From a bacterium (GTDB lineage: Bacteria > Bacillota_I > Bacilli_A > RF39 > UBA660), in NCBI GenBank assembly GCA_029012525.1, contig JAQXMG010000017.1:1-34805 (forward strand): 34,805 bases of DNA, read 5' to 3'. Below, in pieces: positions 14,165 to 34,805 of this stretch (position 1 is the stretch's first letter; every line of letters starts with the position of its first letter). A program made the position numbers and the translations under genes. The notes below the pieces were generated by a model. The model was given only the letters and a program-made list of their open reading frames with translations, did no database searches and had not been told where the DNA came from.

Positions 14165-16465
14165 ATGTTTAAAAAATTTGATGAAGAAGCAAAGAAAGTG
14201 TTAGTAAATATGCGAAGTGAAATGGTTAATTTAAGACATCCTTATATAGGAAGTGAACACTTATTTCTATCAATTCTAAAATGTGGCAATAAAGATATAG
14301 TAGAAAAATTAGAAAAGTTTGGAGTAACATATAAATCATTTAAAACAGAATTAATAAATATTGTTGGTTTAGGAAAAGAAAGCAATGATTTCTATTTATA
14401 TACTCCGCTTTTAAGAAATGTATTACAAGTAGCATCAGATAATGCTATAGATAAAGGAAAAGAATATGTTGATGTTAATGATTTATTACTTGCGCTTCTT
14501 GAAGAAGGAGATGGAATAGCAATAAGAATAATGATGGGAATGAACATAAATGTATCTAAAATGTATGAAGAATTTTTAAATAAAAATGTAAAACCCCATA
14601 AAAAAGGTAAAATGTTAATAGATAGTTTTGGAGTTAATTTGAATGAAAAAGTAAAAAACAATGAAATTGATCCTGTTATAGGTCGTGATAAAGAAATAAA
14701 AAGAATGATAGAGATACTATCAAGAAGATGCAAAAATAACCCTTTATTAATTGGAGAAGCAGGAGTTGGAAAAACTGCAATAGTTGAAGAATTAGCAAGA
14801 ATGATAGAAAATGATGAAGTTTACACTCTAAAAAATAAAAAAATTATTTCAATATCAATGGCTAATTTAGTTGCAGGTACAAAATATCGTGGAGAATTTG
14901 AAGAAAGACTCGGGAAAATTATAAAGGAGTTGGAAAAATGTGATGATGTTATAATATTTATTGATGAAATTCATACTCTTGTTGGAGCAGGAGGAGCAGA
15001 AGGAGCAATTGATGCTTCAAATATTTTAAAACCAGCTCTAGCACGAGGTAAAATAAAATTAATTGGTGCAACAACAATTGATGAATACAAAAAATTTATT
15101 GAAAAAGATAAAGCATTAGAAAGAAGATTTCAAGTTTTAGAAGTAAAAGAACCATCTCTTGATGTTGTATCAAACATTTTAAAAAGATTAACACCGATAT
15201 ATGAAGGTTATCATAAAGTAAAATTAAGTGATGCAATAATAAATTCAATTGTAGAATTATCTGATAAATATATTTATGATCGAAAAATGCCAGATAAAGC
15301 AATCGATGTTTTAGATGAAGTATGTTCTAAAGTATCAATTACAACCAGTAAACATGAAGAACAATTGGAAAACTTAAAGAATAAAATTAAAATAACTAAA
15401 AATTTAAAAAATAATTCAATTATAAATAATAATTTTGCTGATGCAGTATCATATAAACAAGAAGAGAATAAATTGTTTGATGAACTAAATAAATTAGAAT
15501 TAAAATATAGTAATGAAGATTCTTTAAAAGTTGTTACAATAAAAGATGTAAAAGAAGTAATTGAAGAAAAAAGCAAAATTCCTGTATTTGAAAAAGAGAA
15601 TAGTCAAGATCTAAAAAGTTTTAGAACTAAGCTAAATAATATTGTAATAGGGCAAGAAAATGCAGTTAATATACTATACAATACAACTAAAAAAATAAGA
15701 TATGGTTATAAAAAAAATAGTGTTCCTTATTCTTATCTTTTTATAGGAAAAACTGGAGTAGGCAAAACACTTCTTGCTAAAGAATATGCCAAGCTTTGTT
15801 ATGGTATGGATAATTTTATAAGAATAGACATGAGTGAATATAAAGAGCCACATTCTATAAGCAAATTAATAGGAAGCCCTGCAGGATACGTTGGCTATGA
15901 TGATAATAAAAATGTTTTTGAAGAAGTTAGAGATAAACCATATTCTGTTATTCTTTTAGATGAAGTCGAAAAGTCTTGTAAAGAAGTGCTTAACTTGTTT
16001 TTACAAATATTAGATGAAGGAAAAATAAAAGATTCTAAAAAAAATACCATTAGATTTGATAATACGATAATTATTATGACCTCTAATTTGGGAACAAGTA
16101 CTAGTAATATTGGATTTAATTCAAAACAAGAAGAAGCAAATTTTAAAGAACTGCAAAATTTTTTTGGCATAGAGTTTTTAAATAGAATAACAAATATCAT
16201 TTATTTTAATAGTTTAACAGAAAAAGATATCGAAAAAATAGTTAATAAAAAAATCTTAGAATTAAAAAAGAATTATCAACAAAGAGATATTAAGTTTACT
16301 ATTAATAAGAAAATTTTGAGTGAAATAATAACTCTTTGTGAATATGAGAAATATGGAGCTAGACAAATTGATAAAGTAATTAGTGATTATCTAGAAAATG
16401 AAATAATAGATAAATTAATCGAAGGAACAAAAGATATTAAAATAAATAAGTTGGTAAAAATATAG
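14165..16465 (+). CDS. clpC: ATP-dependent Clp protease ATPase subunit ClpC
   Basis: ClpC is a Hsp100 unfoldase that feeds ClpP. The 766-residue protein has an N-domain of two Clp_N repeats ([15 protein letters not shown] and [12 protein letters not shown]). D1 carries Walker [16 protein letters not shown] and Walker [17 protein letters not shown] short coiled-coil middle domain of the ClpC type follows at about residues 390-455. D2 carries Walker [17 protein letters not shown], Walker [12 protein letters not shown] and an IGF loop ([10 protein letters not shown]) that should dock ClpP. It is somewhat shorter than B. subtilis ClpC (810). The usual operon partners ctsR, mcsA and mcsB are missing, and I see no complete CtsR operator upstream, only a lone TTTGACT. 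clpP is encoded at 26.6-27.2 kb. Confidence 0.93.
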
Positions 16466-16518
16466 ACAAAATTTATGAAAGTATGTTAAAATCTATTATA
16501 TAGTAGACATACTTTTTT
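16463..16518 (+). promoter_or_regulatory. Terminator of clpC with a nested promoter for the surface-protein gene
   Basis: Hairpin AAAGTATGT (16478-16486) with ACATACTTT (16507-16515), then T residues: a terminator for clpC. Overlapping its 5' arm and loop is a promoter: TAGACA at 16463-16468, an 18-base spacer ending in TGT, and TAAAAT at 16487-16492 (extended -10). A transcript starting in the loop would lack the 5' arm and so could not form the terminator. The same layout occurs at 34370-34428 before the paralogous gene. Confidence 0.7.
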
Positions 16519-16550
16519 GTTGTACTTTTAATTTAATTGGAGATGATTAG

Positions 16551-17762
16551 ATGAAAAAAAGTGATGATGATTGTAAAGAAAATGATACTTTTAGTTCAAA
16601 AATGTATAATTTTTTAATTCAAGATATTGATTTATGGCACAATTATTATCTATTTGGACTTATTTTCTTTGTTTTATTCGTTATTGGTTATACTTCATAT
16701 TCATTATTTAGTTATGAGATAGAACAGGAAAGTAATATAAGAGTTGTTTTTAGTGATATTAATGGACCATCTTGTGTAATTGAAGGACCTAATTCTTCTG
16801 AAATAGGTATAAATAGTAGTACCGCATATATTATGAATTGTACAGATTCATTTGGAGTTGCCTCTTCTACTTTAACAAGTGATAATTTTATGGTAACGGG
16901 AGATATAACTATAGATAGTATTAATAAAGAAGAAATAACAAATGGTTATAAGTACACAATTAATATTTTATCTGGTACAACAGATACAACAGGTAGTATA
17001 AAATTAAATGCCAATGTTATGCAGGATAATAATGGTAATTATAATAAAGAATCAAATATAAGTAATAATGTTAATGTAATTTTATATAAGACATTTTATT
17101 TAACATATAATAGTACTAATTATGAGTATCATTTTGATGAAGGAATGACTTGGACATCTTTTGTAAATAGCAGTTATAATGACGGGAATTTTACTATAAG
17201 CGGTGAAAATATTAAATATTATAATACTAAGGTTGCTTTAAATGATACTGTTGTTAGTAGTACTGCTACTTTATCTGAAACAACTTATCAAACAAAAGCA
17301 ATAGTATATGCTTGGAATAAATACACAACAGATAGTGTAAATAAAGGAAGTGCTGCTACTGAATATTTTGATGTTGTTATATATGACTACAAAGAAAGCG
17401 GAAGTCAACTTCAATATGTAAGATATTATTCAACTCCAGCACCAAGTGAAATTATTGCTAATGGTACGACTCTTTCAGGTACGTATTATACTTATACTAA
17501 TTTTAATCCATTAAAAGGATATTATTACATTTATTCTAAAGTTGATGATAGTTTAGATTCTGGATGGGATACTGATATGATACGTTATATTCCTGGCAAT
17601 GCTACAATCCAAAGAAAAATTGATGGTGATGTTTATTTGGTATATTTTACATATAGTTATGATGTTAATAAAGAATATCTTACAAGTGAGGATAGTAATG
17701 CATATCCAAAAAATGCTTGGTCTGGGTCAACAATTTATTATGAATTTTTAGGAGAAGTATAA
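16551..17762 (+). CDS. Membrane-anchored extracellular protein, Ig-like/beta-rich (paralogue of the gene at 34455)
   Basis: This 403-residue protein has an acidic cytoplasmic N-terminus of about 30 residues, one transmembrane helix at about 33-55, and a long outside part rich in Ser, Thr, Asn and Tyr with alternating strand patterns. The first outside domain contains SCVIEGP...EIGINSS and MNCTDSFGV, then STLTSDNFMVTGDIT, with two cysteines (about residues 75 and 97) that could pair. The membrane-proximal part is roughly two-thirds identical to the frame beginning at 34455. Later segments (IDGDVYLVYFTYSYDVNKEY) suggest further beta domains. No LPXTG motif is present. Likely role: cell-surface adhesin or stalk; this is inference. 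It has its own promoter and a strong terminator. Confidence 0.75.
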   Translation: MKKSDDDCKENDTFSSKMYNFLIQDIDLWHNYYLFGLIFFVLFVIGYTSYSLFSYEIEQESNIRVVFSDINGPSCVIEGPNSSEIGINSSTAYIMNCTDSFGVASSTLTSDNFMVTGDITIDSINKEEITNGYKYTINILSGTTDTTGSIKLNANVMQDNNGNYNKESNISNNVNVILYKTFYLTYNSTNYEYHFDEGMTWTSFVNSSYNDGNFTISGENIKYYNTKVALNDTVVSSTATLSETTYQTKAIVYAWNKYTTDSVNKGSAATEYFDVVIYDYKESGSQLQYVRYYSTPAPSEIIANGTTLSGTYYTYTNFNPLKGYYYIYSKVDDSLDSGWDTDMIRYIPGNATIQRKIDGDVYLVYFTYSYDVNKEYLTSEDSNAYPKNAWSGSTIYYEFLGEV

Positions 17763-33783: not shown

Positions 33784-33835
33784 ATTTTTGCATAAAATTT
33801 TTTAAAAATAATCATTATTACTTTGGGTGATAGTA

Positions 33836-34366
33836 ATGAAAAAAGTTTTAATTGTTCTAGCAATTTTAGTTTTAGGATATGTCTTTATAAGTAAAAAACA
33901 AGATTATTATATAATTCCAGATGATTCAATTAGATTTAGAGTTATTGCAAATAGTAATAGTGTCTATGATAAATATGTAAAAATTAAAGTTAAAGAAAGT
34001 TTGGAACAAAGTTTTTATGATGATTTAAGTAATTCTACTTCCATTGAAGAATCAAGACAAATTATTACGAATAATATTGAAGACTATAAAAGTATAGTTC
34101 AAGAAACTTTAAATGATTTATCTTATGATGAAGGTTTTACTATTAATTATGGTCTTAATTATTTTCCAGAAAAAGAATATAAAGGAGTTATTTATGAAGA
34201 GGGAAATTATGGGTCATTAGTTATAACAATTGGAAAAGGTGAAGGTGAAAACTTCTGGTGCGTTCTATTTCCACCAATTTGTACTTTAGAAGCAGAAGAA
34301 ACTGATGATATTGAATATAGATTTTTAATTAAAGATTTGTTTGATAAGTATATTTTAAATAAATAG
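33836..34366 (+). CDS. spoIIR: Stage II sporulation protein R (SpoIIR)
   Basis: SpoIIR is secreted from the forespore into the intermembrane space, where it activates SpoIIGA, which cleaves pro-sigma-E in the mother cell. The protein has an N-terminal signal/anchor (KKVLIVLAILVLGYVFI) and the family core: SIRFRVIANSNSVYDKYVKI, the SpoIIR ending NYFPEKEYKGVIYEEGNYGS, and LVITIGKGEGENFWCVLFPP followed by ICTLE. The usual long signal region is compact. ATG 33836 (after GGGTGAT) is preferred to the track start GTG 33827 inside that site, giving 176 residues. A terminator with nested promoter follows immediately. Confidence 0.93.
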   Translation: MKKVLIVLAILVLGYVFISKKQDYYIIPDDSIRFRVIANSNSVYDKYVKIKVKESLEQSFYDDLSNSTSIEESRQIITNNIEDYKSIVQETLNDLSYDEGFTINYGLNYFPEKEYKGVIYEEGNYGSLVITIGKGEGENFWCVLFPPICTLEAEETDDIEYRFLIKDLFDKYILNK

Positions 34367-34369
34367 TAA

Positions 34370-34428
34370 TAGACAAAAAATATAAAAATGTGTTAGAATT
34401 AATTCATAAGAATATAACACATTTTTTT
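34370..34428 (+). promoter_or_regulatory. Terminator of spoIIR with a nested promoter for the phase-variable surface gene
   Basis: Twelve-base stem AAAAATGTGTTA (34384-34395) with TAACACATTTTT (34415-34426), then T residues. Overlapping it: TAGACA at 34370-34375, an 18-base spacer ending TGT, and TAGAAT at 34394-34399 (extended -10). The layout and even the -35 sequence match those at 16463-16518. Confidence 0.72.
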
Positions 34429-34454
34429 GTGTTAAAAAATGGAGGCATAAAAAA

Positions 34455-34805
34455 ATGCAAACAAAAATTCAATATGGGGGGGGCAAGTTAAAAAACTAAG
34501 AAGCTTCCTCTTAACCGATGTGAAAATAATAAATAAATATTTATTAATAACGATAATACTTGTAATACTATCATGTGTAGGACTAACATCTTATGCATTA
34601 TTTAGTTATGAAGTTGAACAAGAAGGTAATATTAAAATAGTATATAGTGATTTAAAAGGACCAATATGTGTAATAGATGGACCAGATACTTCTGAAATAG
34701 GAGCAAATAGTAATGTAAATTATACTATGAATTGTATAGATAATTTTGGTGTAGTTGATACTACTTTAACAAGTGATAATTTTATTGTAACTGGTGATAT
34801 AACGA
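34455..34805 (+). CDS. Membrane-anchored surface protein, out of frame at a G8 tract, 3' end beyond window
   Basis: ATG 34455, with GGAGG nine bases upstream, opens a frame that passes through eight G (34476-34483) and stops at TAA 34497-34499 after 14 codons. One extra G (or two fewer) would join MQTKIQYGGG to a frame that stays open to the window end. That frame has a short basic stretch, a transmembrane helix (KYLLITIILVILSCVGLTSY) and LFSYEVEQEGNI, CVIDGP, MNCIDNFGV and TLTSDNFIVTGDIT. From the end of the helix onward this is roughly two-thirds identical to the protein at 16551. The most likely meaning is an OFF state of a phase-variable gene; a sequencing error in the run is the main alternative. 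GTG 34520 could start the second frame but has no ribosome binding site. Confidence 0.75.
34476..34483 (+). repeat. Homopolymeric G8 tract, candidate slippage site
   Basis: Eight consecutive G at codons 8-10 of the surface-protein gene. No other G or C run in the window exceeds about five bases. Run-length changes would switch the reading frame. Confidence 0.9.

Follow-up and report, generated by a model that had tools for sequence, protein, structure and literature searches.

The G-run locus and a run-less paralogue

The window, by which we mean the whole 34,805-bp stretch of DNA that was analysed (GC content 25%), is one entire contig (C17). The genome, 957 kb in 106 contigs, is assigned to the GTDB order RF39, whose members live in the gut and are all uncultured (PMC9606305). 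Near its end, downstream of a clear spoIIR gene (stage II sporulation protein R; 33827-34366; Pfam Spore_II_R, 6.8e-36) that is present despite a genome of roughly 1 Mb, lies a leader of ~130 bp, found once in the window, that is made up of a promoter, a 5′ stem-loop, a ribosome binding site, codons for MQTKIRY and a run of Gs. The predicted sigma-70 promoter on the plus strand (34370..34399) has a TAGACA hexamer, an 18-nt spacer and a TG-extended TAGAAT, and is conserved in an alignment of leaders, in which other copies carry TATGAT or TAAAAT as the -10 box. A ribosome binding site, GGAGG (34441-34445, plus strand), is followed by an ATG at 34455 that opens seven codons, here reading MQTKIQY, directly before a run of eight Gs (34476-34483, plus strand), the proposed switch. 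Beyond the run this frame encodes GGGKLKN and ends at a TAA (34497-34499) that is codon 15, giving the short product MQTKIQYGGGKLKN* (34455..34499, plus strand). The post-run frame that would be reached with nine Gs is open for 107 codons up to the end of the window, and this plus-strand coding region (34484..34805) specifies a signal-anchor helix followed by the first part of a probable Ig-like domain before the contig end cuts the gene. Both the series of elements from ribosome binding site to early stop (34441-34499) and the intact frame with one extra G had been claimed in the sequence-only reading that prompted this analysis, and both are present. As judged from its sequence, the locus in its assembled G8 state is OFF.

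Upstream of the coding region, an inverted repeat AAAAATGTGTTA...TAACACATTTTTTT (34384..34426, plus strand; -9.1 kcal/mol, z -2.7) forms a putative terminator-like element for read-through from spoIIR, and the 5′ stem-loop of the leader transcript, TAACACA-TTTTTT-TGTGTTA (34415..34434, plus strand), is found in 9 of 10 aligned copies. We note that the repeats TGTGTTA, TAACACA and TGTGTTA between 34384 and 34434 allow two alternative hairpins, the terminator-like one in spoIIR transcripts or the 5′ stem-loop in transcripts from the leader promoter.

C17 stops where it does because its final 141 bp (window 34665-34805; L128, L129) are identical to those of another contig, C22; this stretch is a short-read assembly junction between paralogues. 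A further contig, C101, begins near the point at which these two end and has an open frame of 308 aa; it is probably the continuation of the window gene, that is, its downstream half. A Pfam search with the window protein gave no match, and proteins of the family show a hydrophobic helix followed by weak Big_12, Gly-rich or FGE-like matches under the curated cut-offs. PDB sequence searches with these proteins found no solved homologue, and AlphaFold models of two members were of low confidence (mean pLDDT 42 and 37) and were not used. We infer from the sequence that the product is located at the cell surface.

A paralogue of 403 aa is encoded at 16551..17762 on the plus strand. Its description as closely similar to the window protein is fair, given 57% identity over 104 aa, and, as had also been claimed, it has no G-run; neither the run nor a coding leader of the window type was found there, and the paralogue is presumably expressed constantly. 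The region upstream of it (16460-16555) is a diverged version of the promoter and inverted-repeat layout of the window locus, again without the run, with TAGACA-18-TAAAAT and an inverted repeat AAAGTATGT...ACATACTTTTTT.

Run length in copies of the leader

A DNA search with the 130-bp leader gave 8 matches in the source genome and 15 in one congener (the metagenome-assembled genome CAMEXD01, deposited as ‘uncultured Mycoplasma sp.’), some of them partial. Thirteen leaders in these two genomes bear a run, of eight Gs in one, nine in four, ten in six and eleven in two, and in the alignment of the leaders, which is a close one, the run is essentially the only part of the early codons that varies in length among them. 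Nine of the 13 are out of frame, where about two-thirds would be expected if length wandered freely. Orthologous loci also differ: the window gene has G8 and its orthologue in the congener (L012; leader identity 96%) G11, and the leader on contig C50 of the source genome has G9 and L015, which shares its upstream flank, G11. The two assembled copies of the window locus, being three Gs apart, are in one and the same OFF phase, and the ON form is seen in neither.

Several types of protein stand behind the leader, each with its own membrane segment, and most leader copies are without any downstream start, GTG being replaced by GTA. In two copies, L014 and L021, TAT GGT GGG TAT GCT AAA AAA stands in place of a run and the reading frame is kept (over 386 aa in L021); tract-less and in frame, they look constitutive. 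The C50 copy (L006, G000:C50; 4642-4760) is a G9 leader ORF of 31 codons that terminates within an ATGA shared with the start of a surface gene of 812 aa, an arrangement which suggests that the run controls this gene through translational coupling. No viral contig searched carries the leader.

Poly-G runs across the family

To place the locus in context we considered 193 genomes of uncultured Bacilli, roughly 1 Mb each, from 148 sampled genera of the family. Runs of at least nine Gs are present in 106 of them and take two positions family-wide, after start codons and in promoter spacers abutting the -10 box. The pattern of ribosome binding site, ATG, short stretch and G8 occurs in 28 of the 193 genomes, and the reversed pattern gives few matches. 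Several genera have multi-copy leaders of their own that are unrelated to the window leader (G063, G074, G094, G135, G031 and G043). In each of ten copies from other genera (L036, L137, L138, L140, L141, L142, L145, L147, L150 and L155) one frame is open, for 112 to 504 aa, and nearly all of these frames begin with a strong hydrophobic helix.

The second type, a TTGACA hexamer followed by a G-run, occurs in 51 of the 193 genomes, with as many as 84 overlapping matches in a single genome, and its reversal is almost absent. The -10 box directly abuts the run in 21 of 34 fetched cases, and a hexamer with at most one mismatch from TATAAT stands at the run end in 27 of the 34, versus 4 to 7 at shifted positions; in 30 of these cases the spacing is usually between 16 and 21, most often 19. 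In many of the genomes, tracts of 8 to 16 Gs separate TTGACA from TATAAT, for example near position 1500 in L073, L067, L075 and L105. Genes behind spacer runs include prepilins and anchored surface proteins and, family-wide, lipoproteins. Judging by this arrangement, the spacer runs are a probable case of transcriptional phase variation. A few further families of the same class have the spacer type too, and it was not found in the window organism's own genus; the window locus itself is not a spacer switch, its run lying about 77 bp downstream of the -10 box. Instability through a missing MutS was considered and rejected: the source genome and the congener both have MutS, as do 55 of 60 genomes searched. 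Since MutS is present, slippage may be less frequent than in species that are poor in repair.

A candidate translational switch and its relation to known systems

That a G8 run would be improbable by chance in such AT-rich DNA had been part of the sequence-only reading, and the count bears this out: apart from this one, G or C runs in the window reach 5 at most, and a first-order Markov model predicts 0.018 G8 or C8 runs for the window and 0.5 for the whole genome. Runs of at least eight occur at three places in the genome, namely the window, the homologous leader on C50 (G9) and the suf operon on C71. The last of these (L007, G000:C71; 5234-5241) lies where a sufD-like gene and sufS overlap and may double as the ribosome binding site. 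A chance origin is disfavoured most strongly by the fact that 13 homologous leaders carry the run at one and the same codon. These leaders also bear on whether the window run is really G9, misassembled, so that the gene is permanently on. Both genomes look like metagenome assemblies, homopolymers are prone to error, and C17 stops 322 bp past the run, in the 141-bp repeat common to C22; an error of one G in any single run is possible. However, lengths of 8, 9, 10 and 11 recur over the 13 copies in two independent assemblies, comparable runs are spread across the 106 family genomes, and a permanently-on gene would gain nothing from keeping an unstable run in AT-rich DNA. We therefore regard an assembly error as unlikely. 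Decay of the out-of-frame copies into pseudogenes seems to us more improbable still, and is largely refuted. Degenerate copies do exist (L018, L020 and L026), but run-bearing OFF copies continue for hundreds of codons without a further stop or frameshift. Leaving C50 aside, the G9 frame is the open one in all copies that extend far enough downstream to tell, and OFF copies have intact ORFs of 371 aa (L012), 390 aa (L017), 504 aa (L027), 505 aa (L031) and at least 510 aa (L019 and L028), the four above 500 aa being open to the end of the stretch fetched. Moreover, dN/dS among close relatives is far under 1: in the G9 frame the window gene gives 0.30 with its orthologue (107 codons, no indels) and 0.25 to 0.33 with its nearest paralogues, and L019 and L028, which are both OFF, give 0.42 (478 codons). 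Such values mark purifying selection in this frame; gene conversion among paralogues could account for part of the low dN/dS. Intact ORFs and low dN/dS in genes that are OFF in the assembly indicate that these genes are still used, which is the signature of a switch and not of decay. A downstream frame broken by other mutations in relatives had been named as evidence against a switch; the opposite was found, with the orthologue and paralogues keeping long G9-frame ORFs.

The run might instead act in RNA, either by pairing with the downstream CTTCCTC as a hairpin that controls translation or through programmed frameshifting or polymerase slippage, in which case the frame would not be set genetically. 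In the window copy the run does pair with GCUUCCUC (z -3.5). However, the C-rich partner is missing in L023, L027 and L031, although the run is kept there, a consensus fold of the leaders shows neither pairing of the run nor covariation, and in other genera runs sit in leaders with unrelated flanks. We rejected the hairpin role since the pairing is not conserved across leader copies, and we hold an RNA-level role of any of these kinds to be very unlikely.

Taken together, these comparisons make it highly probable that the window locus is a translational phase-variation (contingency) locus that works by poly-G slippage, and they support the earlier reading of a switchable surface protein. As at contingency loci, the repeat lies in the 5′ coding region, where a change of one unit leads to an early stop, its length differs among related copies with conserved flanks, and the downstream ORF is intact in OFF copies; the comparison with relatives that had been proposed thus finds a run that varies from 8 to 11 and an ORF that is otherwise intact. 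We propose that replication slippage would lengthen or shorten the G-run that follows codon 7 in the gene for a membrane-anchored surface protein. Runs divisible by three (nine Gs) would place the ribosome in the protein frame (ON), and at other lengths translation would end within a few codons (OFF). Given runs of other lengths at the same site before surface genes of relatives, on/off flipping by copying slips is probable, and slippage would presumably occur inside a population. The conserved leader would carry the run ahead of several surface-protein families in the genus, and each cell would therefore express a random subset of them. The benefit may lie in selection by host immunity, phage or adhesion.

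Family-wide, we think it likely that these genomes hold a poly-G phase-variation repertoire that ranks among the largest known and operates by two mechanisms: post-start frame switches, with genus-specific leaders copied before different surface proteins, and spacer-length switches that abut the -10 box. If so, single cells would display combinatorial surface coats. Gram-negative pathogens provide the best-known poly-G contingency genes, and the scale of such genes in an uncultured Bacilli lineage suggests a surface built for bet-hedging, which would affect encounters with host immunity and phages and would explain why assemblies of this lineage break at surface genes.

In the porA and opc promoters of Neisseria and in the poly-A spacers of the Mycoplasma hyorhinis vlp genes, a run between the -35 and -10 boxes tunes transcription. 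These systems resemble the spacer runs in other genera of the family, and the window locus differs from them in being of the translational type. The mechanism is already known; what appear to be new are the clade, the scale and the portable shared leader, and a literature search with subscription journals and preprints mostly outside its reach found no paper on poly-G phase variation in the lineage. Helicobacter canadensis resembles the family in having poly-G at promoter and 5′ coding positions, there within one genome; its genes and lineage are unrelated, and a shared multi-copy leader is not described in the portion of that report used here (PMC2823697). The window locus is also reminiscent of the contingency genes of Campylobacter jejuni, in which poly-G toggles the frame of surface-related genes over a similar range of lengths, runs of G8 to G11 slip, and strain NCTC11168 has 29 loci with poly-G of seven or more in reading frames (PMC4965091). 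Most of the C. jejuni tracts are situated in the body of reading frames, mostly of genes for surface-modifying enzymes, whereas here one common leader puts the run directly behind codon 7, before anchored surface proteins, in a Bacilli lineage that possesses MutS.
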